Of a stretch of 25,969 nt of DNA, positions 2,202 to 25,774 are shown one piece after another. The stretch covers positions 1-25,969 of IMG/VR virus record IMGVR_UViG_3300044638_007414. One strand, written 5' to 3'. Source of the DNA: a virus. Each line of letters begins with the position of its first letter. Within the stretch, counting starts at the first letter, position 1. Below the pieces are notes generated by a model that did no database searches, was not told where the DNA came from, and was given only the letters and a program-made list of their open reading frames with translations. A program made the translations under genes and the position numbers.

Positions 2202-2205
2202 ACAA

Positions 2206-2212
2206 ATAAATA
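2206..2212 (-). promoter_or_regulatory. TATTTAT box 4 bases before the start at 2201
   Basis: The minus strand reads ATATTTATTTGTATG, so the box is four bases from the start codon. If the box is a -10 element, the transcript would be leaderless. It is one of ten such boxes in the window. Confidence 0.4.
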
Positions 2213-2664: not shown

Positions 2665-2687
2665 TCTTTCGAATCGTTACTATCTTG

Positions 2688-2772: not shown

Positions 2773-2781
2773 AAATAGGAA

Positions 2782-2847
2782 TGGGTATTTGCAACTACCC
2801 ACTCCCGAACACGACTTACCCTGGGACGCTGTTCTTATGGGTAGCGT
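2782..2847. other. GC-richer structured element between tRNA-Ser and the endonuclease gene
   Basis: Several short helices compete here. TGGGTA (2782-2787) pairs with TACCCA (2796-2801). CTACCCA (2795-2801) also pairs with TGGGTAG (2838-2844). ACGCT (2826-2830) pairs with AGCGT (2843-2847). It is too short between its outer arms to be a tRNA. It may be a processing signal, a terminator-like element or a tRNA remnant. Confidence 0.35.
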
Positions 2848-2867
2848 AGTAAGTACTGTTGAATCTC

Positions 2868-3521
2868 CTATTCGGAATTTATTTGTGTTCTTCCGAACCT
2901 CCATCCGAGTGGAAGTTCATCATTTTTTTTCATTTTCCTATTCTCATTTCCGTTGGTTATCCAACAAGAACCAAACTGTGAATTACTACTCCCTTTCTGT
3001 TTCAGTGAATTTGCTTCACCGATTTTTCGTTTACTATCTTCTTTGTGTTTTTTTCCACTCCAATTTGGTGGGGATTTAATCTTTCCTTCCAATTCCCATT
3101 CTTTTCGTCTTTCTCTGAAAGATTCGATGTATTTTTCTCTTTCTTCCGGATTATTTATCAATCTCTCCTTTCTGAGTTTTCCGGCCATAATACCCCCCAA
3201 TCGTGCTCCATTTGGAGATATAAAACCTCCCCCTCCTCCGTAAACTAAATTAATACACTTCGGATTTTTTAACAACTCTTCATTTACTAATTTTTTTTCT
3301 GCCTCCCTCAAATCCTCATAGTTTTCAAAAAACTCCAAATATTCTAATTTGAAATTCTCTTTCCCATTTTTTTTGATGGACGATTTTAATATAGTCCCAC
3401 TTCCCAAATATCCATCATTCAAATCATTAGTCGAATGTATTCCTATATAAAACTTCCCATTTTTTTTGTTAGTCGTTTTATAAACAAAGAAGTACTTTTT
3501 ATTCTGATTAGAATTATTCAT
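2868..3521 (-). CDS. GIY-YIG homing endonuclease (SegE-like)
   Basis: This is a free-standing DNA endonuclease that promotes its own spread by cutting DNA lacking the gene. The nuclease domain is at residues 10-95: FVY at about 12-14, YIG at 25-27, then GYLGSG. A NUMOD3-type DNA-binding motif follows (WSGKKHKEDSKRKIGEA, about 150-170). The C-terminal segment CWITNGNENRKMKK...GWRFGR is the pattern seen in SegE-like phage endonucleases. At 217 residues it looks complete. It lies inside the tRNA cluster between tRNA-Ser and tRNA-Thr, a common location for such elements. It interrupts no recognisable gene. Its cut site is unknown, though the neighbouring tRNA region is the natural guess. Confidence 0.92.
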   Translation of the reverse strand: MNNSNQNKKYFFVYKTTNKKNGKFYIGIHSTNDLNDGYLGSGTILKSSIKKNGKENFKLEYLEFFENYEDLREAEKKLVNEELLKNPKCINLVYGGGGGFISPNGARLGGIMAGKLRKERLINNPEEREKYIESFRERRKEWELEGKIKSPPNWSGKKHKEDSKRKIGEANSLKQKGSSNSQFGSCWITNGNENRKMKKNDELPLGWRFGRTQINSE

Positions 3522-3549
3522 ATAATTAAGTATCCCCTAAAAATAAAAA

Positions 3550-3621
3550 AGCTCCCACTCGGAATCGAACCAAGTTATCATGATTACAAGTCATGCGCAT
3601 CGCCAGCAATGCTTTAGGAGC
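3550..3621 (-). tRNA. tRNA-Thr (anticodon UGU)
   Basis: Full cloverleaf: acceptor GCTCCTA/TGGGAGC, anticodon stem CATGA/TCATG with loop CTTGTAA (anticodon TGT, reads ACA), and T arm CTTGG-TTCGATT-CCGAG. Discriminator T; CCA not encoded. Confidence 0.93.
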
Positions 3622-3638
3622 GTATAATTAAATATCTG

Positions 3639-3712
3639 TGGGCCTGGTAGGAATCGAACCTACTACCTTCACATTATGAGTGTGCCGCTCTAACCGAGTG
3701 AGCTACAGGCCC
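3639..3712 (-). tRNA. tRNA-Met (anticodon CAU)
   Basis: Perfect acceptor stem GGGCCTG/CAGGCCC, D arm GCTC...GAGC, anticodon loop CTCATAA (CAT) and T arm TAGG-TTCGATT-CCTA. The paired first base argues for an elongator Met or a lysidine-modified Ile tRNA rather than an initiator. The first pair of the anticodon stem is a G-A mismatch. Confidence 0.9.
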
Positions 3713-4391: not shown

Positions 4392-5072
4392 ATGAACATC
4401 GGACAAGACTTTCAAAACTATTACGTAAATCACTTGGGTAAAGGGTCATTGGACCTTCACAATTTCTCAAATCAAATTCAGTCATCTATGACTCCTTACA
4501 TTCTCGAAGAAAGAGAAATGAGGGCTACTCAGATTGACATCTTCTCAAGATTGATGAGAGACAGAATCATTTGGGTTGCAGGACCTGTTGATGATAGAAT
4601 GTCAACTATTGTACAAGCACAACTAATGTTTATGGACAATGTTGATAAAACCGATATTACGATGCACATTGACAGTCCAGGTGGAAGTGTTAAATCAGGA
4701 CTATCTATGGTTGATGTAATGAACTACATTGCTTGTGACATCAGAACTGTGAACACAGGAATGGCGGCGTCTATGGGGTCTGTATTGTTGGGGGCGGGTA
4801 CTAAAGGAAAAAGAAGTTCTTTGAAGTATTCAAGAACAATGCTACACCAATCTTCAGGTGGTGCTGTAGGTAACATTCAAGATGCGGAAATCACAATGAG
4901 AGAATGGGCTAAATTGAATGATATTCTATTTGGTTTACTTGGTGAGTTCTGTGGGAAAGACCCTGAACAAGTTAAGTTGGATGCTAGCAGGGATTTGTGG
5001 TTGGATAGTGAACAAGCTCTCGAATATGGAATTATTGACCAGATTGTTAAAACGAAAAAGAAGGGTAAATAA
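4392..5072 (+). CDS. clpP: ATP-dependent Clp protease proteolytic subunit (ClpP)
   Basis: ClpP is the serine peptidase of the Clp complex; it forms a tetradecameric chamber and degrades proteins fed by a Clp ATPase. The triad is intact: Ser127 in GMAASMGSV, His152 in RTMLHQSSGG and Asp201 in SRDLWLDSEQA. The MHIDSPGGSV strand that forms the oxyanion region is present. At 226 residues it is full length. The N-terminal stretch TPYILEEREMRATQIDIFSRL closely follows chromosomal Bacteroidetes ClpP, so a host origin is likely. No ClpX or ClpA gene is in the window, so it probably uses host ATPases or mixes with host subunits. It has its own host-type promoter and terminator, suggesting early expression. 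A role as prohead protease is possible but less likely given this similarity. Confidence 0.95.
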   Translation: MNIGQDFQNYYVNHLGKGSLDLHNFSNQIQSSMTPYILEEREMRATQIDIFSRLMRDRIIWVAGPVDDRMSTIVQAQLMFMDNVDKTDITMHIDSPGGSVKSGLSMVDVMNYIACDIRTVNTGMAASMGSVLLGAGTKGKRSSLKYSRTMLHQSSGGAVGNIQDAEITMREWAKLNDILFGLLGEFCGKDPEQVKLDASRDLWLDSEQALEYGIIDQIVKTKKKGK

Positions 5073-5140: not shown

Positions 5141-5857
5141 TTACTTATTTTGGCTTGTTCCTGATGTCAGTGAAGACAACAATCCTCCTACGCCTCCAAG
5201 ATCACCAGAAGTAACATCGGTTTTTAGTTTGTCATAAACTCCTGAAGCTTTGTCATTCATTTTACCGAACAACTGGCAAACTACACCACCTATTTGACCT
5301 TCAATACTTTGGATAAATTTGGTGTCTTTAACCGCACCTCCCAAAGCATTTCTCAAGAATGTATATCCTTGACCTTCCAATCCTTGTTGTCTTTGAATCA
5401 TCATGAACACAGCCTCTGATAAAGATTCTGCTACCAACTTGGTTAATTCATCACAACTTTTAAGAGCTTTAGCTAATCTTGTTGGATTGGATGTAATAAA
5501 TGAAACTAAGAAATCTTTGAAATATCCTGAGAGTCCAATTCCACTTAGAAGTGAGTTAACCATAGGTTCAACTATTGTTTGTAGAATTCCTCCTAATGAG
5601 TTTCCAAAAATTTTACCTAAGAAACCCATTAGTTCTTCATTCAACAAACTTGTTTCTTGAAGGTATGCGATTTCTTGTATTAATTTATTTGCAATTTTTG
5701 TTTTCTTTGACTTAGGTAATGAATGAAAGTTTTTAATATTATCTTCAGACTCGACAATCATCATGATTCTACTTCTGATTAAATTTTGTTCAATCAGGAT
5801 AGTTTCTTTTTTGTTTTTTGCCTCGAGAAGACTCGCTTTAATTTTTGTCTGTAACAT
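5141..5857 (-). CDS. Hypothetical, probably head-packaged or structural protein
   Basis: About 238 residues. The N terminus (MLQTKIKASLLEAKNKKE) is a basic amphipathic helix leading to LIEQ at residues 21-24. Amphipathic and weakly hydrophobic Gly/Leu-rich helices follow (FLGKIFGNSLGGILQTIVEPMV and GLSGYFKDFLVSFI), and the tail is Gly/Ser-rich. I chose ATG 5857, four bases after the stop of the upstream gene; a GTG at 5872 would add five residues and overlap it. It is the last of three adjacent minus-strand genes sharing an [I/L]xEQ motif after a leader, which suggests targeting to or processing in the phage head (inference). The hydrophobic helices could interact with membranes on ejection. 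No known family. Confidence 0.8.
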   Translation of the reverse strand: MLQTKIKASLLEAKNKKETILIEQNLIRSRIMMIVESEDNIKNFHSLPKSKKTKIANKLIQEIAYLQETSLLNEELMGFLGKIFGNSLGGILQTIVEPMVNSLLSGIGLSGYFKDFLVSFITSNPTRLAKALKSCDELTKLVAESLSEAVFMMIQRQQGLEGQGYTFLRNALGGAVKDTKFIQSIEGQIGGVVCQLFGKMNDKASGVYDKLKTDVTSGDLGGVGGLLSSLTSGTSQNK

Positions 5858-5861
5858 AATC

Positions 5862-6896
5862 TTATCTACCACTACTTTTTATTCTCCACGGAGAATTTTG
5901 TCCAGGTCCACCTTGTGCTCTTCCTGTCAAAATATCTAAGATATTATCAAATTTTTTCCCTCTACCAGCAATTCCCCACTCACCATAATGTTCATCATTA
6001 CATGCTTGAACAATTCTCTTTGCTTTGGTCATTGTTGAAGGTTCTACAACAATACTATTTCTTCTTTTGAATCCTTCATACCAATCTTCAATATTTTTTC
6101 TACAAACATTTTTATCAACTGATTGATTCGAAATAATATCTCCTAAGATGGTATCATCTTTACCACTCATGGTAGATTGTAAATTTGGATCATACCACAT
6201 GACTAAACCATTAGGGAATAAGTCACCTGGTGCTCCTAGTTCTTTATCTGTAATTTTAACCATCGTAGATTGTTCGACTCTTGTAGGGTTAAGTTTGTAA
6301 CCTCTTGTGGTAAATCTATCAATGAAATCTAATTGGTCTTGATTGAATTGTGTTGTGGACGTATTTGGAGTAAATGTGGTTGAATCTCCCTTTGGTCTAT
6401 AAAGTGTCACATTACCTATAACTATTTTGTCAAAAACTTTATCTAAAGTTGTCAAATCAACACCTTCGGCCTTTAATGTTTCTAATTTTTTCCAATTTTT
6501 TTTCATTTCAGTTGCAATTTTGGAATCTATTTCTGCTTGTGTTGCAGCAGTAACCGCCTGTGCTGCAGCTTGTTGAACTTCCGTACAATCCCATTTACCT
6601 GGAAGGAATTCGAATTTACCGTCAGCATTAAAAATACCAGCTCTACCGTCAGCAAAGAAATATCTAAATTTACCAGGAGTTTTTGTACTCTCTTGTTTAA
6701 TCGCAAATTGTAATGCAGGGTTCTTACTTTGCATTGTCACAATTTTACCGTTCTTTATACATCCGTCAGTTAATATTTTATTTAATTGACTTTTTAAATC
6801 AGTAACAGCTTGTTCTGAGATTAAAGGTTTTTTCATTTTGGAATGCATTTCCAAAATTGATTCTCTATCTATTTGAGTGATATTATTCATTTTCAT
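5862..6896 (-). CDS. Hypothetical virion-associated protein with [I/L]xEQ leader
   Basis: 344 residues, no signal peptide or membrane segment. The leader DRESILEMHSKMKKPLISEQ ends in ISEQ at residues 26-29, like the genes on either side. An aromatic and Gly-rich segment follows (FRYFFADGRAGIFNADGKFEFLPGKW), then an Ala/Gln-rich helix, and a basic C terminus (GKKFDNILDILTGRAQGGPG). ATG 6896 or the ATG two codons later could be the start. It is followed closely by the 5857 gene and preceded by the PG-binding gene, forming a short operon. Probably a virion or internal head component; no family recognised. Confidence 0.8.
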   Translation of the reverse strand: MKMNNITQIDRESILEMHSKMKKPLISEQAVTDLKSQLNKILTDGCIKNGKIVTMQSKNPALQFAIKQESTKTPGKFRYFFADGRAGIFNADGKFEFLPGKWDCTEVQQAAAQAVTAATQAEIDSKIATEMKKNWKKLETLKAEGVDLTTLDKVFDKIVIGNVTLYRPKGDSTTFTPNTSTTQFNQDQLDFIDRFTTRGYKLNPTRVEQSTMVKITDKELGAPGDLFPNGLVMWYDPNLQSTMSGKDDTILGDIISNQSVDKNVCRKNIEDWYEGFKRRNSIVVEPSTMTKAKRIVQACNDEHYGEWGIAGRGKKFDNILDILTGRAQGGPGQNSPWRIKSSGR

Positions 6897-6910: not shown

Positions 6911-7957
6911 TTAGAATTCGGTGTCAACGCTGATACGTTGTTCTTCACCAGAAATTTCAGGGTCTTCTTCTGTAGTTTTACCACATATTTTATCAACATC
7001 AGCATCTGTGAAAGAATCAAATCCTTTTGCTTTCAATGCCTTTTGTGTGTTTGGTCCAAATTTACCATCAGTGGTCAATCCTCCTAAACATCCTTGGACT
7101 TTCCTAATCGCTTCTGATTTACATCCAAAAGAATAGGTTCCTGAACAATCTTTATATCCACTTTTACCTCCTTTACATTTTTCTTGATTAGGGTTGACGG
7201 TACAATCTACTTCAACGGTTTCATCTTTAATGGTTAATAAAGAATCTTCAACACAGTTTCTGATTGGTCTGAAAATTTGTTTCCATTCAGATTCTGCATC
7301 TATATCACTATCTAAATCATCAAACAAATCACCACTATCAGAATTTTTGTTATAATATTGTACTAAAGCACAAAAATCAGATGCGGTAGCCCCTTCTAGT
7401 TGTTTGAACGCTCCAAATAATTTTTCTTCATCTGTTCCTCCTCTGAATCCGTAACTATCATTTATGATAGCGTCTTCAATATCATCACTAATTGAACGTA
7501 AATCAGTATCTTGAAGTTTACGAGGTAATTTGGCAATCTTAGATGCTTCCGAAGAACACATCTCAAACATCTTTTTAACTTTATTTGCACCTGTGTCTTT
7601 AGTTATTAACCAATATGCTAATGGTAGAAGACCTAAACCTACCGCGCCTCCAATAACTCCAAATCCAACTGTGGCTGCGGTTCCTGCTATAGTTCCCGCA
7701 GGTGTTAAGGCCAATCCCACAGAAGTTGCCAAACCTGGTAATGAAGCGATACTACCTGTTAATGATCCCGAAACTAGACCTGTCGCTGCGGCACCCGCCC
7801 CTAAACCAGCTCCTGCGACTGCCCCTGCAGCAGCGGGTGCTGCAAGTTGTTCAGAAATTGTTTCTTTATTTTCATTCAAAGTTTTTGAAGAATCATAATT
7901 CATCATCAACTTTATTCTTTCTAGTGCCTCTTGTGGGCTGTATTTTGGTTGTACCAT
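6911..7957 (-). CDS. Virion-type protein with Gly/Ala-rich hydrophobic region and PG-binding domain
   Basis: 348 residues. A leader (PQEALERIKLMMNYDSSKTLNEN) ends in TISEQ at residues 33-37. A long Gly/Ala-rich hydrophobic stretch covers about 38-118 and could span or insert into a membrane. A helical region (about 150-235) with GGTDEEKLFGAF and LVQYYNKNSDSGDL vaguely recalls annexin-type helical repeats. Near the C terminus, about residues 275-325, a peptidoglycan_binding_1-like domain is seen (AIRKVQGCLG...TDGKFGPNTQKALKAKG). Several Cys in this part could form disulfides. A plausible role is an internal protein that contacts the cell wall or membrane during DNA entry; this is inference. 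A TATTTAT box lies 18 bases upstream. Confidence 0.82.
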   Translation of the reverse strand: MVQPKYSPQEALERIKLMMNYDSSKTLNENKETISEQLAAPAAAGAVAGAGLGAGAAATGLVSGSLTGSIASLPGLATSVGLALTPAGTIAGTAATVGFGVIGGAVGLGLLPLAYWLITKDTGANKVKKMFEMCSSEASKIAKLPRKLQDTDLRSISDDIEDAIINDSYGFRGGTDEEKLFGAFKQLEGATASDFCALVQYYNKNSDSGDLFDDLDSDIDAESEWKQIFRPIRNCVEDSLLTIKDETVEVDCTVNPNQEKCKGGKSGYKDCSGTYSFGCKSEAIRKVQGCLGGLTTDGKFGPNTQKALKAKGFDSFTDADVDKICGKTTEEDPEISGEEQRISVDTEF

Positions 7958-14301: not shown

Positions 14302-14592
14302 ATGACAAAACGATTGACTACAAAACAAAAACAAGAACAATTTGTTGTAGATGTAATCAACAAAATGTTTGAAATCGCAGGGTACCAAGTAACCTACGAT
14401 GATGTAAAGGACAGAAAAGATGATTGGTATGCCCAATGGACAATGACCATGGAACAAAATGAACAATGGAAAAAGTGGGGTATGGATTATATGAAACGAG
14501 TATTTCGTTGGAATAAAACCTTATGTGAAAGAGAAATGGGAATGGTTTCTTTAATGTGGGGATTAAAATTTAGTGATTTCGATAATGAATAA
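14302..14592 (+). CDS. Hypothetical phage protein upstream of thyA
   Basis: 96 residues, basic N terminus ([27 protein letters not shown]), then a Trp-rich, charged middle ([21 protein letters not shown]). ATG 14302 is preferred over an in-frame TTG at 14284. Its stop overlaps the thyA start by eight bases. No family recognised. Confidence 0.75.
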
Positions 14593-14905
14593 CATAGAAA
14601 GACAATATCAACAACTACTCGGAGACATTTTAGAGAATGGAGTAGAAAAAAAAGATAGAACAGGAACTGGAACTCTTTCAGTATTTGGTAGACAAATCCG
14701 CCATAAAATGAGTGAGGGATTTCCTTTACTTACCACAAAGAAGATGGCATGGAAAACTATGGTCACGGAACTCCTGTGGTTTTTGAGAGGTGAGACTAAC
14801 ATCAAATTCCTATTGGATTATGATTGTCATATTTGGGATGGGGACGCTTACCAAGCGTACCTCAAAGAATGTGAAAAATTAAAAAAAGATGAGGGAAATA
14901 AGTAA
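14585..14905 (+). CDS. thyA: Thymidylate synthase, N-terminal fragment of split thyA
   Basis: Thymidylate synthase converts dUMP to dTMP using methylene-tetrahydrofolate. This 106-residue piece holds the start of the enzyme: phosphate-binding Arg25 in DRTGTGTLS, then [25 protein letters not shown] and [12 protein letters not shown]. It stops soon after the site of the 765-bp endonuclease insertion. The catalytic Cys lies in the second fragment (15653-16510). The break lies in the variable loop before LGPIYGKQW, so the fragments could fold together as a two-chain enzyme. ATG 14585 fits the family start; an in-frame GTG at 14573 is less likely. Confidence 0.93.
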
Positions 14906-15660
14906 TTTTTATATCCATCACCATATTTATATAAAAAGAGAATATGGAAACAAAATACTATTTGTATATTAAGACAAGTCCGTTAGGATTGAGATATCTT
15001 GGTAAAACTACTAAAGACCCAATCACCTATTTAGGTAGTGGTAAGATTTGGAAACGACACATTAAAAAACATAATTTTACCATTAATGATATTGAAACAG
15101 AAATTGTATTTGAAACAAATAATGTTGATGAGTTAATTAAAAAAGGTATAGAATTAAGTAATTTATATAATGTTGTTGAATCAAAGGAATGGGCGAATTT
15201 AAGAGAAGAGGCTGGTGATGGTGGAGATACTAGTAAGTTTATTGATTTTTCAAATCCATCATTCCACAACCCAAATAGAAGCAAACATTTGAATATTTGG
15301 TTAAATGACGTGACAGAAGAAGAGAGAAAAAAAATTCTAAGAGATAGAATCAATAAAGTGGATTTTGAAGAAAGAGATAAAAAAACAAAAGAAAGCACAG
15401 ATTGGGATAGTTGGAGAGAATCTATCAAAAATAGGAAAACTGACTATTCTAAATTCTTAAACAAAGTACACGAAAAAAATAAAAAACCAATACTGCAGTT
15501 TGATTTGGCGGATAATTTTATACAAGAATTTGATAGTGCTTCGTCAGCTGCTAAATCGTTAGGTTATGATAATGGTGGGAACATAACAAATTGTTGTAAG
15601 GGTAGGTGTAAATCTACTTTAGGATACAAATGGAAATATAAAAATATAGAAAGTGAAAGC
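14896..15660 (+). mobile_element. 765-bp homing endonuclease insertion inside thyA
   Basis: AAATAA occurs at 14896-14901 and again at 15661-15666. Removing 14896-15660 joins GGA to AAT AAA AAT GAT and restores one thyA frame of about 386 codons. The insertion is a multiple of three bases. Outside the endonuclease frame it leaves only about 42 bases, too few for a group I intron core, and its stop codons rule out an intein. Confidence 0.8.
14924..14930 (+). promoter_or_regulatory. TATTTAT box before the thyA-inserted endonuclease
   Basis: The sequence CCATATTTATATAAAAAG sets the box 13 bases before the ATG. In T4 the intron endonuclease I-TevI is also driven by an internal late promoter, so separate late expression is plausible. 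Confidence 0.45.
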
Positions 15661-15666
15661 AAATAA
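14944..15666 (+). CDS. GIY-YIG homing endonuclease in thyA (I-TevI-like)
   Basis: 240 residues. The GIY-YIG domain is at 4-90 with YLY (6-8), RYLGKT (17-22) and TYLGSG. A charged linker follows (about 115-175), then a C-terminal DNA-binding module from about 180: KPILQFDLADNFIQEFDS with SAAKSLGY and a C..C-bearing end (NCCKGRCKSTLGYKWKY), typical of NUMOD1/IENR1 repeats. The nuclease, linker and DNA-binding order follows I-TevI, which lives in the T4 thymidylate synthase gene. Its target is probably thyA itself. The last codons overlap the second thyA fragment (GTG 15653), so translation of that fragment could be coupled to this gene. Confidence 0.92.
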   Translation: METKYYLYIKTSPLGLRYLGKTTKDPITYLGSGKIWKRHIKKHNFTINDIETEIVFETNNVDELIKKGIELSNLYNVVESKEWANLREEAGDGGDTSKFIDFSNPSFHNPNRSKHLNIWLNDVTEEERKKILRDRINKVDFEERDKKTKESTDWDSWRESIKNRKTDYSKFLNKVHEKNKKPILQFDLADNFIQEFDSASSAAKSLGYDNGGNITNCCKGRCKSTLGYKWKYKNIESESK

Positions 15667-16510
15667 AAATGATTTACACGAAAGTGGTAGACCGCTAACG
15701 AAAGAAGAGTTCATTAAAGAAATCAAAACCAATAATGAGTTTGCTAAAAAGTGGGGTGAATTAGGTCCAATTTATGGTAAACAATGGAGAAGTTGGAATG
15801 GTAGAAAAACTGATGGGTTTGTTGAGTATGAATCGAATGGTTATAATGAAAATATAAAAGGTGTTGACCAAATCACAAATCTAATCAACGAACTTAACAC
15901 AAATCCTGATAGTAGAAGATTGATGGTATCTGCTTGGAATGTAGGTGACTTAGACCAAATGGTTCTACCACCTTGCCACTATGGATTCCAAGTTTATACA
16001 AGAGAGTTGCGGGTTGGAGAAAGGTTAGATTTAGCGGCAAAAACTTATGATACATTTGACCCATTTGATTTTGGATTACCGATGGTAAACATTGAACATG
16101 ATGATATAGATAAATTATATCCTGTTCCTAAAAGAGCAATCTCTTTAATGTGGAATCAACGAAGTGTAGATACATTTTTAGGATTACCATTTAACATTGC
16201 AAGTTATGGATTGTTGTTAGAAATCATTGCAAAGGAAGTTAATATGGTACCTGATGAGTTGATTGGCAATTTAGGTGATGTTCATTTGTATTCGAACCAC
16301 ATTGAACAGGCGAAAGAACAAATGCATAGAAGACCTTATGATTTACCCAAAGTTCAAATCACGGAAAGAAATTGGTACCAACATGAAAAAGTAAAAGAAC
16401 ATTTGGGAGAAAAAACATTCACCGAAAAAATCATGTCTTATAGACCAGAATGTTTTGAGTTAATTGGTTACGAATCACATCCAACCATCAAAGCTCCATT
16501 ATCAAATTGA
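15653..16510 (+). CDS. thyA: Thymidylate synthase, C-terminal fragment of split thyA
   Basis: 285 residues carrying the catalytic part of the enzyme: LGPIYGKQWRSW, DSRRLMVSAWNVGDLDQM, the nucleophile Cys108 in LPPCHYGFQ, QRSVDTFLGLPFNIASYG and HLYSNHIEQ. The Asn in LPFNIASYG marks a thymidylate synthase rather than a dCMP hydroxymethylase. An extra segment of about 30 residues between the Cys loop and the QRS strand is a phage-type elongation. There is no ATG near the start; GTG 15653 inside the end of the endonuclease gene is the best candidate. All catalytic residues are intact, so the split enzyme is probably still functional. Confidence 0.92.
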   Translation: MKANKNDLHESGRPLTKEEFIKEIKTNNEFAKKWGELGPIYGKQWRSWNGRKTDGFVEYESNGYNENIKGVDQITNLINELNTNPDSRRLMVSAWNVGDLDQMVLPPCHYGFQVYTRELRVGERLDLAAKTYDTFDPFDFGLPMVNIEHDDIDKLYPVPKRAISLMWNQRSVDTFLGLPFNIASYGLLLEIIAKEVNMVPDELIGNLGDVHLYSNHIEQAKEQMHRRPYDLPKVQITERNWYQHEKVKEHLGEKTFTEKIMSYRPECFELIGYESHPTIKAPLSN

Positions 16511-17661: not shown

Positions 17662-18282
17662 ATGGAATTTTTAATTACAGAATCTCAACTAAGAGTTCTT
17701 CTTCAAGAAGAGGAAAAATCCCAACTTGGGTTACACGTGAAAAACATGTATGCCTTCACAAAACAAATGTTGAATAAAGTTTTCAAATCTTATGGTATAA
17801 ACCTAAGAATGTTGTTGACATGGGGTACATCAGTTGGAGGTTTGGTTCTTCCTCTCGACCAATATTTGAGAACACAACACATGGAATTGACAGAAGAACA
17901 AAGAATGTTAGTATTAGTGGGAATTATTTTTGCATTATTTTTTGAGACCAAAAGACCTTTTACAAAAATTATGTCTTTGATTAAAGAAAATGGTTTGGAA
18001 AATATTTTTCAGGATGGACTTCAAAAAGGAACACAATTGAGAGATGCGTTCACGAACTTTTTATCTTCGGCTAACACAGGAGTTGGAACATTTTTGGAAG
18101 CTATCGCTTACAGTTTCCTAATTCCTATCATTACAGATGTTCAATCCGTATTAGGTCAAACAGAAAACATTGAAACTGCAGCAATATTGATTGCTGAAAG
18201 ATTGTTGGCGGCAGGAGTTATCTTAGTAGGAAGACAAACCCTGATAGATGTGGTAAAAAATGTTTTGGAAAAATTAAAATAA
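17662..18282 (+). CDS. Membrane or head protein with an ITE leader
   Basis: 206 residues. The N terminus MEFLITESQLRVLLQEE contains ITE at 5-7 and resembles the leaders of the other suspected head proteins. Hydrophobic segments occur at about 50-65, 80-96 (MLVLVGIIFALFF), 140-160 and 170-195, so it is probably membrane-inserting. Its start follows the palindromic promoter by zero bases. It converges with the 18284 gene, one base apart, with no clear terminator. No family recognised. Confidence 0.75.
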   Translation: MEFLITESQLRVLLQEEEKSQLGLHVKNMYAFTKQMLNKVFKSYGINLRMLLTWGTSVGGLVLPLDQYLRTQHMELTEEQRMLVLVGIIFALFFETKRPFTKIMSLIKENGLENIFQDGLQKGTQLRDAFTNFLSSANTGVGTFLEAIAYSFLIPIITDVQSVLGQTENIETAAILIAERLLAAGVILVGRQTLIDVVKNVLEKLK

Positions 18283-18665: not shown

Positions 18666-18935
18666 CTATTCTAATTCTTCAATTTCAACCACTAATTGGT
18701 CCGGTCCTTTTATGACTCTATGCCAAACAAATTTGGGTATGTGAATTTGACCGGACTTCAACAATTTGACCGGCAATTCATTTTCCATTTGAAATGACCA
18801 TCCACCATCTTCAATAATGGTTACATTTCGGCCATTTAAGTCTTGATGCCACTTCAATTCTTCTTCCTCCACATCAGGACTAAACGTCCTAATTTTTTTA
18901 TTATTTACTTCTATTTGTTCAAAAGGAAAATCCAT
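18666..18935 (-). CDS. Small cupin-like protein
   Basis: 89 residues. The pattern KWHQDLNGRNVTIIEDGGW...FQMENELPVKLLKSGQIHIPKFVWHRVIKG matches a single cupin barrel, with His residues (KWH, IHIP, WHR) that may bind metal. Such short cupins recur in large phages without known substrate. The start ATG 18935 overlaps the upstream stop (TAATG), so it is coupled to the 19558 gene; a TTG six bases earlier is less likely. Confidence 0.75.
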   Translation of the reverse strand: MDFPFEQIEVNNKKIRTFSPDVEEEELKWHQDLNGRNVTIIEDGGWSFQMENELPVKLLKSGQIHIPKFVWHRVIKGPDQLVVEIEELE

Positions 18936-19558
18936 TACCAAGAATTTGAAGATGATAATCCGAGTTGTTTTGCGTAACGGCCTACGTTACAACTCCAGTA
19001 TCCTGCGGTGGTTCTATCTTTCTTTTGGCTACACTTGTGTCGTGCTCTAAATGACTTTGCAGCACCTTTGTTTGCGTTTCTAACTCTCAAGTTAGGATCA
19101 CCAAAAGATACTTTTTTGATACCCCCACTTTTTGACTTCACATAAACTGCGAATTTTTTTGGTCCACCTGAAGTTCTAAATGGTTTGTTTAATTTTACAT
19201 TCTTACCTCTGTGTTTTGCTTCTTCTAACACATCTTCCTCATCCTCCTCTTCGTAAATGAATGGAGCATCAAGATAAATTAGTTTACCTTTAATTGAAAC
19301 CTTTTTACCCAAATCTGATTCGACCATCAAAGTATCTTCTTCGTTAAGTTCAATTTTTCCCTCTTCCCACAACTGTCTAACTTCATTTACTAAATCAAAA
19401 TAACTTTCAGAATATGCTCGGAAAATGTTGTTAGTTAAAGTCAATTCATTATCAACGTGATATTTCAATGCTTCTGAAACTTCAACTGATTCTTTAATAA
19501 TTAAAGATTTGTTCAAATGTTCTTCTAATGTTTCTTTGATTAGTTCTCTTAAATTCAT
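18935..19558 (-). CDS. Virion-type protein with conserved C-terminal SFGDPN/RARH/YWSC domain
   Basis: 207 residues. The N terminus is a charged helix (MNLRELIKETLEEHLNK, then SLIIKESVEVSE) like the leaders noted elsewhere. An acidic centre (YEEEDEEDVLEEA) follows. The basic C terminus has KKVSFGDPNLRVRN, SFRARHKCSQKKDRT and GYWSCNVGRYAKQLG with two Cys. I have seen this C-terminal pattern in many large phage proteins of unknown function; it could bind zinc or nucleic acid. A TATTTAT box is 16 bases upstream. It starts the short operon down to 18284. Confidence 0.75.
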   Translation of the reverse strand: MNLRELIKETLEEHLNKSLIIKESVEVSEALKYHVDNELTLTNNIFRAYSESYFDLVNEVRQLWEEGKIELNEEDTLMVESDLGKKVSIKGKLIYLDAPFIYEEEDEEDVLEEAKHRGKNVKLNKPFRTSGGPKKFAVYVKSKSGGIKKVSFGDPNLRVRNANKGAAKSFRARHKCSQKKDRTTAGYWSCNVGRYAKQLGLSSSNSW

Positions 19559-19584: not shown

Positions 19585-20202
19585 TTACTCTCTATTAAAT
19601 TTTAACTTCCAATACACTCCTCCTGTGACATATGGTGTAAATTTGCCTGTAACGCCATCAAATGTTCTATTTGCGACTCCACCACCGATTTGGAATACTT
19701 TATCATCTTTTGTTTTTAACAATATGCTTGTTCCTAATGAATTAACCCAATCTTGATGACTCAAGGCTCCGTTCAATCCCACATAAACTTGGTTTCTAAC
19801 TTTCGGTGGTTCAGGTGCTGGTTCCCTAACAATCTTAGGTTTCACATTTGATGTAAACTTTCTTGAAACAACATTATTTTGTGAAATGGTGTCAAACAAA
19901 TATATAAACCCCTGATTATTACTCAACATTATTGTATCCTGCACGAAATTTTTGAAGTAAAAATTTTTGAGAATAAATGCGGTGTCGACTAGTGGAGTTG
20001 GCGCTGGCACCTCAACAATTTTTTCTACTTCAACTTCGTACGGAACCTCCACTTCAACTTCATAAATAACCTCCTGAGGTATTGTATCATAAACCAATTT
20101 TTCTTCTATTTTGATTTGTGGAGGAACGAAAAATTGTAAGAATATTATTATACCCACCATTATGAGTATTACTATGTGTCTGATGTCAAATATCTTTTTC
20201 AT
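19585..20202 (-). CDS. Membrane-anchored protein with barrel-like C terminus
   Basis: 205 residues. One N-terminal membrane helix (about 9-27) is followed by a Val/Glu/Pro-rich rod-like stretch (YEVEVEVPYEVEVEKIVEVP) that could reach across the periplasm. The C-terminal 70 residues alternate in the manner of outer-membrane beta strands (QVYVGLNGAL, VFQIGGGVANR, YVTGGVYWKLKF). It could tether inner and outer membranes, as a spanin does, but no lipobox or spanin motif is present. Starts four bases after the 20207 gene in the envelope cluster. Confidence 0.75.
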   Translation of the reverse strand: MKKIFDIRHIVILIMVGIIIFLQFFVPPQIKIEEKLVYDTIPQEVIYEVEVEVPYEVEVEKIVEVPAPTPLVDTAFILKNFYFKNFVQDTIMLSNNQGFIYLFDTISQNNVVSRKFTSNVKPKIVREPAPEPPKVRNQVYVGLNGALSHQDWVNSLGTSILLKTKDDKVFQIGGGVANRTFDGVTGKFTPYVTGGVYWKLKFNRE

Positions 20203-20206
20203 ATTG

Positions 20207-21529
20207 TTATAACATTAATCTTGAACCAATCAAGAAATTGCTAAGAATTGGAGAACTTGAGTTACCCAATGCTCTATAGTTTAGGCTTAATCCAAATCGT
20301 TTACTTATTTTATAATCAAATGAGGAACCGACTAAGAAAGAAAATTGTCTATTCACCGTTGACTCACCTGTTTTGGGATTATATGAAATTGGTGAGTTCA
20401 TTAGAAAAATTTGTGGTGAAAGAGTGAGTTTGGTGTTTACGACATATGGTTTTGTCCAAAATACAACTGCCGAAGTGGCAAGAGATACGTTAAATACTCT
20501 TTTAATTGTTCTTGTTTCAGTATTAACTTCAGTATCTTTCAACAATAAAGTTATTAAACCAACGTTATATCCGTATGTACCATATTTTTCACTTGGTTTA
20601 ATATTCGTGTACCCAAGTAATCCCATATAAGTTCCATCTAAGTAAGCCGCGGTGAATGAGTAAGAGTGGATTTGACTTAATTTACCTTGTTGAAAATTCA
20701 TTTTTGTATATCCTCCACCTAAAGCAAATTGGTCTAATGTACTCCAAATCATGGCGTTTGCACCCCAAGTTTCATTTCCCGCTAATGATGATTGACTAAC
20801 ACCAAAGGAGGCGATGGCACTATATTTCAAATCGGGACCTTGTACGGTTGTCAAGTCTGAGGCAACCAACATTGGGTTTACTGGTCCGACTTTCTTTTTA
20901 TCACCTTTCCCTTTGCCATCTGAATTATCATCTTCACTTTCTCCCGAATCTCCACCTTCTGAACCACCTTCTTCAGAACTACCCTCAGAACTCGACTCAC
21001 TTGAACTTGACTCACTCGATCCTGATTCACTACTACTTGATGATGAAGACGATGATGATTCTCCTGAAGAAGATTGAGATGATGAACTAGATGAAGAAGA
21101 AGATGATGAGGATGTAGGAGTGGAACTACTTGCGGAAGACGCTGCAGTTGAGGAGGCTGATGAAGATGCCGCGGATGAAGCTGCGGAAGATGCCGCAGAT
21201 GAGGCAGCTGACGACGCTGCGTTGGCTGCGGCTTGTGATACAGTTTGTGTGACAGTTTGGGTTACTACCGCATTTGCGGGACATGGGGTTGAAAAAATTC
21301 CGTTAATCCAAATGGTTACTTCCCCTGAGGTGAATTGTTGATAAGTGAATACTTTAGATTTGTTTCTGACTATAACTAATACACCATTATTAGATTGTAT
21401 GGGTATAGATACAACATAAGTTTTTGAATCACAGGGGTCAATGTATGTTTGTGTAACAACTTGCCCCTGTGACTCGTGGTAAACTAATACCATGAATAAT
21501 AACATCAAAAATATTTTCAAACTTTTCAA
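20207..21529 (-). CDS. Outer-membrane barrel protein with long Ala/Ser-rich linker
   Basis: 440 residues. Signal peptide about 1-23 ending ESQGQ. A small Cys-containing domain follows (about 24-90, DPCDSKTYVVSIP, TPCPANAV). A low-complexity tract of about 110 residues begins with Ala-Ser repeats, passes through Ser/Glu/Gly and ends in a Lys/Gly patch. The C-terminal 225 residues have alternating strands (SAIASFGVSQSS, DQFALGGGYTKMNFQQ, FGLSLNYRALGNS) and end in L, like a beta barrel. The start appears to be TTG (no in-frame ATG until residue 9), unusual in this window. It lies between the CsgG-like and anchored-barrel genes, so a surface structure fed by the export module is possible. The Ser-rich tract may be a flexible spacer or glycosylation region. 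Confidence 0.8.
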   Translation of the reverse strand: MKSLKIFLMLLFMVLVYHESQGQVVTQTYIDPCDSKTYVVSIPIQSNNGVLVIVRNKSKVFTYQQFTSGEVTIWINGIFSTPCPANAVVTQTVTQTVSQAAANAASSAASSAASSAASSAASSSASSTAASSASSSTPTSSSSSSSSSSSSQSSSGESSSSSSSSSSESGSSESSSSESSSEGSSEEGGSEGGDSGESEDDNSDGKGKGDKKKVGPVNPMLVASDLTTVQGPDLKYSAIASFGVSQSSLAGNETWGANAMIWSTLDQFALGGGYTKMNFQQGKLSQIHSYSFTAAYLDGTYMGLLGYTNIKPSEKYGTYGYNVGLITLLLKDTEVNTETRTIKRVFNVSLATSAVVFWTKPYVVNTKLTLSPQIFLMNSPISYNPKTGESTVNRQFSFLVGSSFDYKISKRFGLSLNYRALGNSSSPILSNFLIGSRLML

Positions 21530-21551
21530 GTATCATCGGTTTTGAAATATT

Positions 21552-22274
21552 TTATTCTGTGAATATTCCTTTTTTAATCATTCTATCTAAAATTCTGGCA
21601 CAAGCAATGTCAAGTGCTTTTTTTGTCGCGATAGATATTGTAGATTGATTAAACTTTACTGGATCGACTGTTGCGTCTGATAGAAGTGTTAATTCTCTTG
21701 TGGTAACTGCTTCTCCAAGTCCTGATGCTCCGAATACAACACCAGTTTCCGCATTTGTAAATCTAACTTGTAGACCAATACGGGTAACCATCATATTTTT
21801 CACACCATCTTTCAGGTTTACAGTTTCATCTTCTGAAATGGAGTAATCATAACATTCAATGGTTACGAAATATTCCGCTAAATTGATTTTACCGAATCCA
21901 TCCAATTGGTTTTCAGAAATTCCCGCTTGAGATGCTTGAAATTGTTTCACCATTCGGTTTTTGATTTCCGTCTTATCTTCAGTAAATTTGAATCTATTAA
22001 GATTCTCAAGATATTCCATAGAAATGTTCGCAACACCTAAACCAACTCGTTTTTCTTTTAGTTCAGGATACATCTCATACATTTCATCTGAAATACCTGC
22101 CTTTAGGATTTGAATTGGAATTTGCTTTCCTTCATAATCCATAAATTGACTTATGTCAATTGCGGTTTCGAATGAAGCTTTGTATTGCTCAGTCTTTGTG
22201 CTTCCCACAGTTTGAGAAAACGCCGATATTTGTACTATTAGTGCAAATATCGACGATAAAATAAACTTTTTCAT
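21552..22274 (-). CDS. CsgG-family envelope protein
   Basis: 240 residues with a signal peptide ending SAFSQ. The mature part fits the CsgG/curli-assembly fold: a first alpha/beta half (GVANISMEYLENLNRF...), LAEYFVTIECYDYSIS, TRIGLQVRFTNAETGVVFGASG, and a C-terminal helix (ISIATKKALDIACARILDRM) like the one ending CsgG. CsgG forms the outer-membrane channel that secretes curli subunits. Two odd points: the lipobox Cys of CsgG is absent, and the segments expected for its two pore hairpins look short, so it might be a CsgG-fold periplasmic protein rather than a channel. Neighbours encode secreted, lipoprotein and barrel proteins. Confidence 0.75.
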   Translation of the reverse strand: MKKFILSSIFALIVQISAFSQTVGSTKTEQYKASFETAIDISQFMDYEGKQIPIQILKAGISDEMYEMYPELKEKRVGLGVANISMEYLENLNRFKFTEDKTEIKNRMVKQFQASQAGISENQLDGFGKINLAEYFVTIECYDYSISEDETVNLKDGVKNMMVTRIGLQVRFTNAETGVVFGASGLGEAVTTRELTLLSDATVDPVKFNQSTISIATKKALDIACARILDRMIKKGIFTE

Positions 22275-22305
22275 ATTGAATCTAAGTTATCCCTCAATTC
22301 GTTTA

Positions 22306-22467
22306 TTAAGGTCTCTTTGGCCAAGCCCAACCCTTCTTCTTACCTCTCAACATCAAGTAAGTTGCTCCTCCGAAGAAGACTAACAAATACAATGATGGTG
22401 AATAAAATACAAACATGGCAACCATCAATAATGACAGGAATACCATAAAACTTAAAAATTGTTCCAT
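22306..22467 (-). CDS. Small two-helix membrane protein (53 aa)
   Basis: A 53-residue frame, MEQFLSFMVFLSLLMVAMF...LYLLVFFGGATYLML, then RGKKKGWAWPKRP. Two membrane helices and a basic tail. It starts one base after the 22795 gene stop (TAATATG), which supports real translation. Probably an inner-membrane helper of the envelope cluster; function unknown. Confidence 0.7.
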   Translation of the reverse strand: MEQFLSFMVFLSLLMVAMFVFYSPSLYLLVFFGGATYLMLRGKKKGWAWPKRP

Positions 22468-22468
22468 A

Positions 22469-22795
22469 TTACCATTTTGGAGCGGTTTCTTTGAACTCGT
22501 CTCCTTCTTTTTTCTTAGGTTTATCTGTCGATGCAGGTTGTGATGCTGGTTGATTTGATTTTTCTCTGATAATCACAGTTTCTTTACCACCAGATTGTTG
22601 CTGTTGGTTGTTATTGTTGATGATAATTGGTGTTTGTTGTTGGACAGGTGTTGCAGCAGCTTCTTCATCTCCACCGATGAATTTACTTGTCATAACACCG
22701 CCAGCTCCTAACACAGCAGTAGTCAACAATCCGATGATTGTTTTCTTTAACCCTGTCCATGTCCCATCATTGTGGTCTTCTGTTTCTTCACTCAT
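22469..22795 (-). CDS. Single-pass membrane protein with Gln/Asn-rich segment
   Basis: 108 residues: an acidic N terminus, a membrane helix (about 18-38, TIIGLLTTAVLGAGGVMTSKF), then low-complexity TPVQQQTPIIINNNNQQQQSGG and a charged Ser/Pro/Lys tail. There is no cleavable signal. Gln/Asn-rich tracts can be amyloid-prone, which is suggestive next to a CsgG-like gene, but the tract here is short. Function unknown. Confidence 0.7.
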   Translation of the reverse strand: MSEETEDHNDGTWTGLKKTIIGLLTTAVLGAGGVMTSKFIGGDEEAAATPVQQQTPIIINNNNQQQQSGGKETVIIREKSNQPASQPASTDKPKKKEGDEFKETAPKW

Positions 22796-22815
22796 GTTAT
22801 TTTAGTTTAGTTGGT

Positions 22816-23172
22816 TTATTTTATTATTATTGGATATTTTACTTCGTTACCTGAGATGTCTATGAAGATTATGTCATAATACCCCGCAGATTCTTTTGAT
22901 AAGTCAAACACTCTTTGTGTTGTGTTATTAGTTGCAGTAAATCCCTCCTTTTTAATTGGTGTTTCTTGACCAAATGGGATTATTTGTATTGAGTATTTTG
23001 CACCAATAGTCGTTTCAAATTCAATAATTACTACATTATCATTTTGGAAAACAGATTTTATACTGGTGGTATTTGACTCAACACCTAAATTGATTACTTG
23101 TAATTCATCATCGTATGGGTTCATACATCCCTGTAATAAAAGACATCCGAGTATAATTAATATTTTTTTCAT
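22816..23172 (-). CDS. Small lipoprotein with beta-sandwich domain
   Basis: 118 residues. The N terminus is a lipoprotein signal (MKKILIILGCLLLQGC, lipobox LQGC, Cys16). The rest has an FxxDLSKESAGYYDIIFIDISG...YPIIIK pattern, which resembles the Ig-like C-terminal domains of Bacteroidetes surface proteins, including type IX secretion sorting domains and DUF3244-like domains. A lipid-anchored sorting-type domain would be unusual. Starts one base after the stop of the 25279 gene, so they are co-expressed. Confidence 0.8.
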   Translation of the reverse strand: MKKILIILGCLLLQGCMNPYDDELQVINLGVESNTTSIKSVFQNDNVVIIEFETTIGAKYSIQIIPFGQETPIKKEGFTATNNTTQRVFDLSKESAGYYDIIFIDISGNEVKYPIIIK

Positions 23173-23173
23173 C

Positions 23174-25279
23174 TTAGAAATTGTTATATCCTGTTAATTT
23201 TATTTGGGTTGTGTTCAAATTTATACCCAATTGAGACCCCTTCACGGCACTTGCGTCCATAGTTGAAGAGACTTTAACCGAAGTTAGAATATCAACTCCA
23301 CTACCTATAGTCGAAAATTTCAACTTAAATGGAACTACGTTTCCGTTTAATGGAGTTTTTTCACCTTGGTCTATTGCTCCAAATTTAATTTTTCCATCCA
23401 CTGAATTCACAAACAAATACCATGTATTTGGTACGTTAGGTGATAATTCTTCAAATTTGATTTTGGTTGGGTCGTAATCAAATTGAAATTGTAATCCCGT
23501 CACTAAATTTCCATTTGTTGTGACATTAACTGGAATTTCTATATTATTAGATGTTACAGTTACATTTGATAGATTAACATCAATCGATGGTACAGTATTC
23601 GGAGTATTGATAAATGACTCAGTAGACATGGTTCTAAATGCGGTATTAGATTTCAAACTATTTGACGCTCTACTCACTACAGATGCTACTCCATTATTAC
23701 TTACAACAACTTGTGATGAGTGAGAACGATTCACATCTCCCCACAAAAGATATTTCAAGTCTACAACCGTGTTAGTTCCTATTGTCCCTGTTTTAATATA
23801 AGTTTTAGGGAAATCGAAAGAATTCCAATTAGTTGTTGTTATTGCTCCCCAAGAATTTGATGGTGAGTCATTAAATGTAAATTCCGCCCTTAACCCAAAG
23901 TCAGGGCCTCCATTGATATTTCTTATGTATGGAGTGTAAGTTGACGTGCCTATTGAAGATATACCAGATGGTATTCTAAATGTTGCCCAAGTTCCGTCCT
24001 TCGAAACAAATTCTACAGGTCCAACATACAAATCAAATAATTGAAGTGACTTTATTTTTTCAGGAGTATAAGTTGCATCGAATTCTCTCATATCAACCAA
24101 TATTCTGGACACATTTTGAGAATAATGATTTGGTGTAATTATCGCCCACTCAACTTGACCAGCGATAGTTGTTGCGTCAGTCGACATCCATGTTGGTACA
24201 CTCATATAACCACCACTACCTTGTGTATATCCATTTGGAACGGTTACTAACGCGTCAATACCTACAACTTGAGATAACAACCTTGGTAAATCTCCTCCAT
24301 CAATCAATTTATTTCTATTGATGTCAGCGGCATATAGGGATTGTCCTGAATTGATTGTTTGTCCTTTGCTCCCATCTAATCCCATTGTCACAAATTCTCC
24401 TTGTGCAGATGTAAAGTCGGAAATTGTTATTGCGTTATTATAAATGGTATTTAGTTTGTCCGTCTCATGCATTACCGAAACCTCATATACTTTATTTTCA
24501 GATAATAAGGATTGGTTTACATCCACATTACCGTTTGATAAAACATTAAAGTTTTGATTGGTATTTGTTAAAGTATCTCTGAATGAAACCCTTAAACTAG
24601 TTAAATTTAGTAAATTCGTATTTGCATCAACTTTTGCAGTTATCAATTTACCTGTATTTTGGTTCATAATAACCTCAGTTGATAATGGTGTATCCATAAA
24701 GGTTGCGACACCAGATCCTTGGCCATTCCATCCAGCAACAAAGTTTAATTTAGTCGGATTAAATGAATTTGCTGTAGATGCTGCTTTTAATCTAAATCTT
24801 ACAATCAACATTCTATCATAAGATGTGAACGGCATTGCCGAATTTGTTGACCAAGTTATGGTTGCTCTAAGAATCGCATTAGACCCACTAGGATTATATG
24901 TGTAAGTTGCATTGGAAACATATCTTTGTGTACCATTTGTAAAAGTACTATTCCCTGCGTAAGTATAATGTGGATAATTTTGCCAAGCCAATTGTATATT
25001 TGAACCTGCTGGGAGTATTCCTCCATTTCCTCCAGTACCGGTATGATTAACCGAAACAATCTCAAAGTTTATTTGGTCGTATTGAAAGTCAAACATTAAT
25101 TGCCTTGTAACTGCATCACTGTTACCATTAGCCTGAACTATAACGTCAAATTGGTCTCCCCTATCAATAACTCCCCCGCTTATATCTGTTAAAACTCTTG
25201 TGTCGGGGAACTTAAACTTAATTTGTCCAAATGAAGTGAACGAGATTAGGAAAAAAGATATTAGTAATAAATTTTTCAT
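23174..25279 (-). CDS. Secreted protein with cohesin-like and dockerin-like domains
   Basis: 701 residues with a signal peptide ending TSFGQ. A cohesin-like beta sandwich fills about 29-205. A dockerin-type calcium loop, DINRNKLIDGGD (319-330), matches DxNxNxxIDxxD; a second, degenerate GDVNRSHSS lies at 514-522, far downstream, so the two halves are separated by an inserted domain. A second cohesin-like domain (566-690: VTGLQFQFDYDPTKIKFEEL, GKIKFGAIDQ, VVPFKLKFS) closes the protein. Such domains make protein-protein contacts on cell surfaces. Cohesins and dockerins in a phage envelope cluster are unusual. It could be a scaffold exported to the host surface or displayed on the virion. It lies immediately downstream of 25280 and is followed by the lipoprotein gene. 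Confidence 0.85.
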   Translation of the reverse strand: MKNLLLISFFLISFTSFGQIKFKFPDTRVLTDISGGVIDRGDQFDVIVQANGNSDAVTRQLMFDFQYDQINFEIVSVNHTGTGGNGGILPAGSNIQLAWQNYPHYTYAGNSTFTNGTQRYVSNATYTYNPSGSNAILRATITWSTNSAMPFTSYDRMLIVRFRLKAASTANSFNPTKLNFVAGWNGQGSGVATFMDTPLSTEVIMNQNTGKLITAKVDANTNLLNLTSLRVSFRDTLTNTNQNFNVLSNGNVDVNQSLLSENKVYEVSVMHETDKLNTIYNNAITISDFTSAQGEFVTMGLDGSKGQTINSGQSLYAADINRNKLIDGGDLPRLLSQVVGIDALVTVPNGYTQGSGGYMSVPTWMSTDATTIAGQVEWAIITPNHYSQNVSRILVDMREFDATYTPEKIKSLQLFDLYVGPVEFVSKDGTWATFRIPSGISSIGTSTYTPYIRNINGGPDFGLRAEFTFNDSPSNSWGAITTTNWNSFDFPKTYIKTGTIGTNTVVDLKYLLWGDVNRSHSSQVVVSNNGVASVVSRASNSLKSNTAFRTMSTESFINTPNTVPSIDVNLSNVTVTSNNIEIPVNVTTNGNLVTGLQFQFDYDPTKIKFEELSPNVPNTWYLFVNSVDGKIKFGAIDQGEKTPLNGNVVPFKLKFSTIGSGVDILTSVKVSSTMDASAVKGSQLGINLNTTQIKLTGYNNF

Positions 25280-25774
25280 TTAATTTGTTTCAAATAGTTT
25301 AGTTACCAAGTTATCACTAGCCTTCTTCAACGCATTACTCAAAGATTGTTGATTGAAATTCCCTCCGTTGTCCACAATTAGTGTTGACATAGAAATTTCA
25401 GATGATTCTTCTTCGACAATGACCTCTTTGATTTTTTTCCCATCAACCTTCAAAACTCCTCTAAGACGTATTACAACAGATTCACTGTCTTTGTGAAATA
25501 CAGAGACATTCGTCTTGGTTTTTAATACATCCAAGTAGACAATTTCAATAGATAATTTTTGATTGGAGTCAGGGTTTAGATCGAAATTTTTTTCTTGTAA
25601 AAATTCCTCTGTGATGTTTCTCAAACCGAATTCTAAGTTTCGATTTCCTGCGAGATTTCCCACTTGAATCTTGTTTACGACAGATTCAACCCATATTTCA
25701 TCAGTAAGATTTGTGGTGACATGGGGCATTATGTATAGCATAATGCCCGCCATAAACAGGGTTAATATTTTCAT
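25280..25774 (-). CDS. Periplasmic or exported hypothetical protein, first gene of envelope cluster
   Basis: 164 residues with a probable signal peptide (MKILTLFMAGIMLYIMPHVT), cleavage uncertain. A central strand-rich region (QKLSIEIVYLDVLKTKT, SVVIRLRGVLKVDGKKI) is followed by a C-terminal helix QQSLSNALKKASDNLVTKLF, a layout like small CsgG-fold, LptE or YajG-type periplasmic proteins. The precise family is not clear. Its start codon lies inside the 25-bp repeat shared with 10819-10843, and a TATTTAT box lies 20 bases upstream. It is transcribed first in the envelope cluster and ends directly at the next start. Confidence 0.8.
   Translation of the reverse strand: MKILTLFMAGIMLYIMPHVTTNLTDEIWVESVVNKIQVGNLAGNRNLEFGLRNITEEFLQEKNFDLNPDSNQKLSIEIVYLDVLKTKTNVSVFHKDSESVVIRLRGVLKVDGKKIKEVIVEEESSEISMSTLIVDNGGNFNQQSLSNALKKASDNLVTKLFETN

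Follow-up and report, generated by a model that had tools for sequence, protein, structure and literature searches.

Why should a phage carry a run of adjacent genes whose products are nearly all exported or membrane proteins, among them one with the fold of CsgG and one with a cohesin domain? The question is raised by the 25,969-base IMG/VR record IMGVR_UViG_3300044638_007414, a fragment of a viral genome that was analysed over its whole length and is called the window here. The module in question comprises eight co-directional minus-strand open reading frames (ORFs) running from position 25774 down to 19585 (coordinates checked; Table 1), with intergenic gaps of 0, 1, 20, 1, 31, 22, and 4 bp. 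Six of the eight proteins have, as read from the sequence, an N-terminal signal peptide or lipobox or are anchored in the membrane by an uncleaved N terminus, and the other two are small and contain hydrophobic segments by hydropathy. A first-pass annotation had already described eight adjacent minus-strand genes for almost exclusively exported or membrane proteins, several of them touching or one base apart, and both descriptions hold. It overlooked the paralogy between the CsgG-like protein and the product of 25280–25774, as well as an endolysin gene that starts divergently at 25897. The domains, the folds, the conserved gene order, and the mutual exclusion of a sorting domain and a lipoprotein described below were established computationally. 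The reading that we find best, and put forward tentatively, is that of a module remodelling the envelope or surface of the infected cell in a Bacteroidota host, acting through the type IX secretion system (T9SS) of the host or through a lipoprotein anchor. It is very probable that the module belongs to the host envelope rather than to the virion; that surface modification is its purpose is a possibility to which we give a little under even weight.

The module is phage-borne. At least 493 relatives of the CsgG-like protein were found in IMG/VR, and 160 loci from two scans were collected and their genes clustered. A 100% identical CsgG-like protein is encoded on a 326-kb viral contig, and immuto, a cultured phage of Flavobacterium with 160 kb, has a homologous block, which bears out, together with the export signals, the earlier proposal of a phage-encoded envelope module. 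Pattern-limited scans of 84,980 prokaryote genomes returned two matches only, both on contigs of metagenome-assembled genomes and possibly phage, so that the module is essentially a phage system. Its recurrent order is cohesin-type protein, membrane protein with a C-terminal tryptophan (Trp-tailed protein), CsgG-like protein, low-complexity barrel protein, and CsgG-fold paralogue; the window departs from this order in that the paralogue comes first. Flanks longer than 6 kb on either side are available for 87 loci, and 77 of these have the full set of four partners within 8 kb and on the same strand. Collapsing loci at 92% identity in their CsgG-like proteins (dereplication) left 33, which contain the cohesin-type protein in 33, the barrel in 33, the Trp-tailed protein in 30, the paralogue in 29, and all four in 27 cases. 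Such conservation of gene order goes far beyond what chance would give, and the scattering of these genes in related phages that the first-pass annotation had allowed for is not what the loci show. The genes flanking the module differ from locus to locus. No published description of the module was found in the open-licence PubMed Central (PMC) literature.

The most conserved member of the module, encoded at 21552–22274, is related to CsgG by its fold. The Pfam family CsgG (PF03783) does not match the window protein; it matches 2 of 25 relatives (best 1.9e-4), and the phage record of one relative exceeds the curated cut-off (21.0 versus 20.8 bits). The AlphaFold2 model, built on an alignment of 25 sequences, has a CsgG fold at a predicted local distance difference test (pLDDT) score of 76. 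The top Foldseek matches of this model are CsgG (4uv2, E 4e-6, probability 1.0), and VIA-align gives Z-scores of 10-11 for CsgG, 9.8 for PelC, and ~8 for LptE and FlgT. All structures discussed here are monomer predictions built on shallow alignments. Because the direct hhalign comparison of the CsgG-like family with the CsgG of pelagiphage HTVC008M fails (3.4), the kinship is carried by the fold and the weak Pfam matches, and sequence identity to the CsgG/PelC/LptE/FlgT superfamily is ~10%. The assignment to the CsgG family in the first-pass annotation thus stands on structural grounds for a protein that lies below the Pfam threshold. The same annotation had called the pore hairpins short, which is right for hairpin 2 (by our count ~11 residues shorter than in HTVC008M CsgG, and unformed in the monomer model) but not for hairpin 1, which has a normal length (~23 versus 25 residues), is acidic, and carries the invariant E148 and D149. 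A channel role of the CsgG-like protein is doubtful, as had been suspected. It was also correctly noted that the window protein has no lipobox; a simple pattern finds lipoboxes in 43 of 162 relatives, and a periplasmic location in association with the outer membrane is therefore plausible.

The CsgG-like protein is 51% identical to gp017 of immuto, and gp019 of the same phage is a homologue of the 25280–25774 protein (blastp E 5e-8). The profile of the latter's family (A3) matches that of the CsgG-like family (A2) with an hhalign probability of 97.6 (E 3e-12); the module thus contains two CsgG-fold proteins. The 25280 family also has a weak match to the YajG-like Lipoprotein_16. The identification of the 25280 protein as CsgE was considered and ruled out, given that related records contain no CsgE match and that its paralogy to the CsgG-like family is clear. 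Sequence searches that used A2, A3, and the 701-residue protein as queries against solved structures gave no useful relative. Furthermore, CsgE, CsgF, and curlin repeats found no match in 14 module-bearing phage records, which may be incomplete, and the pelagiphage control HTVC008M was positive for CsgG, CsgF, and curlin in the same searches. The comparison with curli-type genes drawn in the first-pass annotation therefore does not extend beyond the fold: because its pore hairpins are either acidic or short and it lacks CsgE, CsgF, and curlin repeats, the module has a CsgG fold without being a curli or type VIII secretion system (T8SS).

The 701-residue secreted protein contains a cohesin domain (Pfam PF00963, 27.1 bits versus a cut-off of 24.1) and, from residue 319, a dockerin-like calcium-loop motif (DINRNKLIDGGDL). 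Such motifs occur 143 times in the 123,136 residues of the cohesin family versus 20 times in the 581,604 residues of other ORFs. Among 23 relatives, 19 have a cohesin domain, 18 a T9SS sorting domain, and 12 a match to Dockerin_1 (E up to 1, best 7.8e-5). Of the cohesin/dockerin composition claimed earlier, the cohesin part is confirmed in the window protein; the dockerin part appears there as the loop motif, without a match to Pfam Dockerin_1. The T9SS sorting domain (PF18962/TIGR04183) is absent from the window protein as well. In immuto the cohesin protein is split, with gp015 combining a cohesin domain and a T9SS sorting domain, both above the curated cut-offs (34.6 and 44.8 bits for PF18962/TIGR04183), and its neighbour gp013 is a C-type lectin (Lectin_C) with a dockerin-like loop. 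Across the 14 phage records searched, the sorting domain occurs exactly once in 8, each time inside the module locus by coordinates.

In the clade of the window, the sorting domain is missing and a lipoprotein gene lies directly downstream of the cohesin gene. The family of this lipoprotein (LP13) matches a sister family (LP7; hhalign 97.0, E 1e-10), which in turn matches the T9SS sorting domain (hhalign 90.4, E 1.4e-6). A profile search found 23 LP7 members at E <1e-3, with the best match outside these families at E 0.28. A direct match between the LP13 and sorting-domain profiles was also tried and stayed weak (hhalign 2.8 at first, 21.8 later), so the kinship runs through LP7. When the 112 loci with enough upstream sequence were counted, 64 had only the sorting domain, 46 only the lipoprotein, none both, and 2 neither. 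L061 and L067, both nested within the window clade, have the sorting domain and lack the lipoprotein, and the exclusion is therefore more than one split between two clades. From these sequence relationships we infer that the lipoprotein probably replaces the sorting domain as surface anchor.

The 20207–21529 protein was modelled with AlphaFold2 on 41 sequences as a small N-terminal domain, a helix, a Ser-rich disordered arm, and a 12-strand barrel (pLDDT ~70-93 by block for the barrel). Foldseek finds NanC, the EspP autotransporter, and the amyloid exporter FapF as best matches of the barrel, and VIA-align gives Z-scores of 12-17 against many barrels, which makes the class of fold clear without singling out a family. 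The two ends of the protein are conserved, and its low-complexity arm is hypervariable. The next gene, at 19585–20202, is found in the window clade only (38-member cluster); its product has one strong transmembrane (TM) segment by hydropathy and ~4 C-terminal strands read from the sequence. As a side observation, three copies of such a protein could form a 12-strand trimeric barrel linking both membranes. The family of the 22469–22795 protein has a C-terminal Trp in 137 of 137 members.

How might these parts work together? In the mechanism that we propose, Sec would export the cohesin/dockerin protein by way of its signal peptide, and in most relatives the C-terminal sorting domain (CTD) would take it across the outer membrane through the T9SS of the host. 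In the window clade, which has lost that domain, the separately encoded related lipoprotein is probably the anchor. The presence of cohesin and dockerin modules in one protein, together with dockerin-like motifs in the neighbouring C-type-lectin proteins of relatives, points to a possible assembly at the cell surface. The 12-strand barrel and the two CsgG-fold periplasmic proteins probably constitute one outer-membrane complex, which the Trp-tailed protein would tether to the inner membrane. The likeliest benefit would be an altered surface that blocks competing phages or changes adhesion; for phage curli, too, a benefit of this kind is proposed and not proven (PMC7029224, PMC9599517). A NUC1-type nuclease with a DKGH motif and a signal peptide is encoded beside or inside the module in some loci (L081:9935-10513 and the same cluster in L119, L134, and L142; 29 members), and a periplasmic DNase of this type would fit superinfection exclusion. 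An elaborated version, in which head-to-tail cohesin-dockerin polymers with lectins are displayed via the hijacked T9SS, or via a lipoprotein evolved from the sorting domain, and are held by the CsgG-fold/barrel complex, is in our judgement unlikely. If true, it would be a previously undescribed display system and a T9SS counterpart of phage curli.

Several points weigh against surface remodelling. Contact among the barrel, the CsgG-fold proteins, and the Trp-tailed protein is what we infer, as are surface location, assembly, and benefit. A T9SS-bearing Bacteroidota host is presumed for the relatives. Dockerin_1 does not match the window protein, and LP13 reaches the CTD profile through its sister family LP7 only (direct hhalign 21.8). 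The loci share ancestry and are not phylogenetically independent. Finally, the endolysin and holin-like neighbours point to another role. The purpose is testable because one cultured phage, immuto, carries the module and has a named host, Flavobacterium sp. LMO8. The module bears on the open question of why phages carry curli-type envelope genes: Bacteroidota phages, on hundreds of viral contigs, hold a different envelope module, with the CsgG fold alone in common with curli. The swap of the sorting domain for a related lipoprotein is a clue to the evolution of sorting domains and to the re-anchoring of surface proteins.

The strongest rival, which we nevertheless regard as rather unlikely, is outer-membrane lysis, and it has this rank because an endolysin is often adjacent. 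Here, the Trp-tailed protein, holin-like two-TM proteins, the CsgG-fold (lipo)proteins, and the barrel would breach or bridge the outer membrane in the place of spanins, together with the endolysin. In the window, 122 bp lie between the module and the start of a gene that in relatives encodes a PG_binding_1 + GH19 endolysin (the L008 copy matches phrog_181, E 8e-68). This endolysin is found at 16 of the 33 dereplicated loci; of the 18 phage records that encode it, 10 have it no more than 10 kb from the module, against ~2 expected by chance by our own estimate. For immuto and for several relatives, however, the distance is at least 30 kb. Paralogue, [peptidase], two-TM protein, endolysin is a recurrent order, and at several loci the endolysin gene directly follows the small two-TM protein. 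Many loci also encode, beside the module, a recurrent secreted protein whose HESLHL/HESKHL motif suggests a zinc peptidase (47 in cluster; L137:11595-12044, L110:194-649). Small, mostly two-TM proteins (c4/c6) occur at 73 of the 87 loci, always on the module strand and mostly adjoining the CsgG-like gene, but neither c4 nor c6 has database support as a holin: comparison with Pfam and PHROGs, with Rz/Rz1 models not searched genome-wide, assigned the small membrane proteins to no holin or spanin family. The 22306–22467 protein is by its position a putative holin-like candidate. The single TM segment of the Trp-tailed protein is followed by a ~74-residue tail that could cross the periplasm if extended. 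Its gene and the CsgG-like gene are direct neighbours in 42 cases, and in 31 of these the two overlap by 7 bp. Lysis through a CsgG pore has been suggested for phage Melnitz (PMC9004378). The T9SS-sorted cohesin protein, on the other hand, has no obvious role in lysis and yet is among the most constant partners.

A dedicated export channel is improbable in our view, although secretion pores offer models for it: FapF exports amyloid, PelBC polysaccharide, and CsgG curli. The barrel and the CsgG-fold proteins would then form a secretion pore for the cohesin protein or other cargo, which is consistent with the grouping of the barrel with FapF and EspP by Foldseek, with the resemblance of the CsgG-like protein to CsgG and PelC, and with the neighbouring position of the genes in nearly all loci. 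The CsgG-type pore hairpins look unfit for this task, 12-strand barrels are numerous and functionally diverse, and in most relatives a T9SS sorting domain on the cohesin protein makes a second exporter unnecessary. A role as virion decoration or fibre proteins, fibres being among the roles suggested in the first-pass annotation, would draw on the capacity of cohesin and lectin domains for adhesion. Such a role is very improbable, since their signal peptides, lipoboxes, T9SS sorting domain, and outer-membrane barrel mark these proteins for export and set them apart from the proteins of a capsid, which is built in the cytoplasm. Moreover, the block in immuto comes after replication and nucleotide genes and not after tail genes.

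Table 1. Features of the module and the adjoining gene in the window
Feature	Position	Strand	Evidence
CsgG-fold paralogue, exported, 164 aa	25280..25774	-	Profile A3 vs A2, hhalign 97.6, E 3e-12
Secreted cohesin protein, 701 aa, dockerin-like motif, no T9SS sorting domain	23174..25279	-	PF00963, 27.1 bits
LP13-family lipoprotein, 118 aa, putative surface anchor in place of the T9SS sorting domain	22816..23172	-	hhalign chain via LP7; mutual exclusion
Inner-membrane-anchored protein, 108 aa, disordered tail, C-terminal Trp	22469..22795	-	immuto gp016, blastp E 3e-8
Small membrane protein, 53 aa, in the slot of relatives' holin-like two-TM proteins	22306..22467	-	Hydropathy and position
CsgG-fold protein, exported, 240 aa, most conserved member of the module	21552..22274	-	AlphaFold2, Foldseek, immuto gp017
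Outer-membrane barrel protein, 440 aa, TTG start	20207..21529	-	AlphaFold2, Foldseek, VIA-align
Inner-membrane anchor, Pro/Glu-rich spacer, and ~4 C-terminal outer-membrane-like strands, 205 aa	19585..20202	-	Sequence reading
Endolysin 5' end, divergent, cut by contig end	25897..25969	+	First residues identical to L008 endolysin

Outside the module, an Rfam scan of the window found tRNAs only, with no known riboswitch at the module. Five minus-strand tRNA genes lie at 131-3712, and a GIY-YIG-like endonuclease ORF (2868-3521) is placed between tRNA-Ser and tRNA-Thr. Thymidylate synthase is seemingly split in two ORFs around another GIY-YIG-like endonuclease ORF (14573-14905, 14944-15666, and 15653-16510, plus strand); Rfam has no intron match at this split gene, and the related loci L011 and L013 have an uninterrupted thyA. 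The plus-strand ORF at 4392-5072 encodes a ClpP-like protease whose PHROG match is to head maturation proteases (phrog_94, E 1e-35). Several otherwise unrelated proteins share a similar short leader, such as LRELIKETLEEHL and ITESQLRVLLQEE; they are encoded at 5141-5872, 5862-6896, and 6911-7957 (minus strand), 17662-18282 (plus strand), and 18935-19558 (minus strand). By analogy with the capsid-targeting sequences of T4, which these leaders resemble, the proteins are perhaps packaged in the head.

Compared with known systems, the predicted fold of the 21552–22274 protein belongs with the CsgG/PelC/LptE/FlgT superfamily of periplasmic (lipo)proteins. Some of these work with outer-membrane barrels, PelC with PelB and LptE with LptD, and the CsgG-like gene is likewise paired with an outer-membrane barrel gene. 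It differs from the superfamily in its low sequence identity, in the missing lipobox of the window protein, and in the second paralogue within the same module. The barrel protein shares with FapF, which exports functional amyloid in Pseudomonas, and with autotransporter translocators a helix and an N-terminal periplasmic-type domain before a 12-strand barrel; unlike them, it has a long hypervariable low-complexity arm. Sequence kinship to them was undetectable, and no Fap genes came up, although no search aimed at them was made. The arrangement of an inner-membrane protein with a periplasm-length tail directly before the gene of an outer-membrane-type (lipo)protein, with an endolysin nearby, recalls the Rz/Rz1 spanins, but a CsgG fold replaces the short proline-rich lipoprotein, barrel and cohesin partners are added, and no sequence match to known spanin families was obtained in the searches made.

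The T9SS cargo of Cryophage is, like the cohesin protein of most relatives, phage-encoded and equipped with a T9SS type A sorting domain, and is presumably exported by the host system; superinfection exclusion has been proposed for it, not proven (PMC7468147). That cargo consists of single variable enzymes, whereas here a cohesin/dockerin protein is part of a conserved multi-gene block, one clade of which has swapped the sorting domain for a related lipoprotein. The phage-borne curli/T8SS genes of pelagiphages and of the OM43 phage Melnitz (PMC7029224, PMC9599517, PMC9004378) resemble the module in being phage-encoded and multi-gene, in including a CsgG-fold protein, and in having the envelope as target, and the function of both is putative. 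Unlike phage curli, the module lacks CsgF, CsgE, and curlin repeats, its CsgG-like protein in the window falls under the Pfam cut-off, and its sole cultured carrier infects Flavobacterium; it adds a 12-strand barrel, a second CsgG-fold protein, and a cohesin/dockerin protein that would be routed through the T9SS in relatives.

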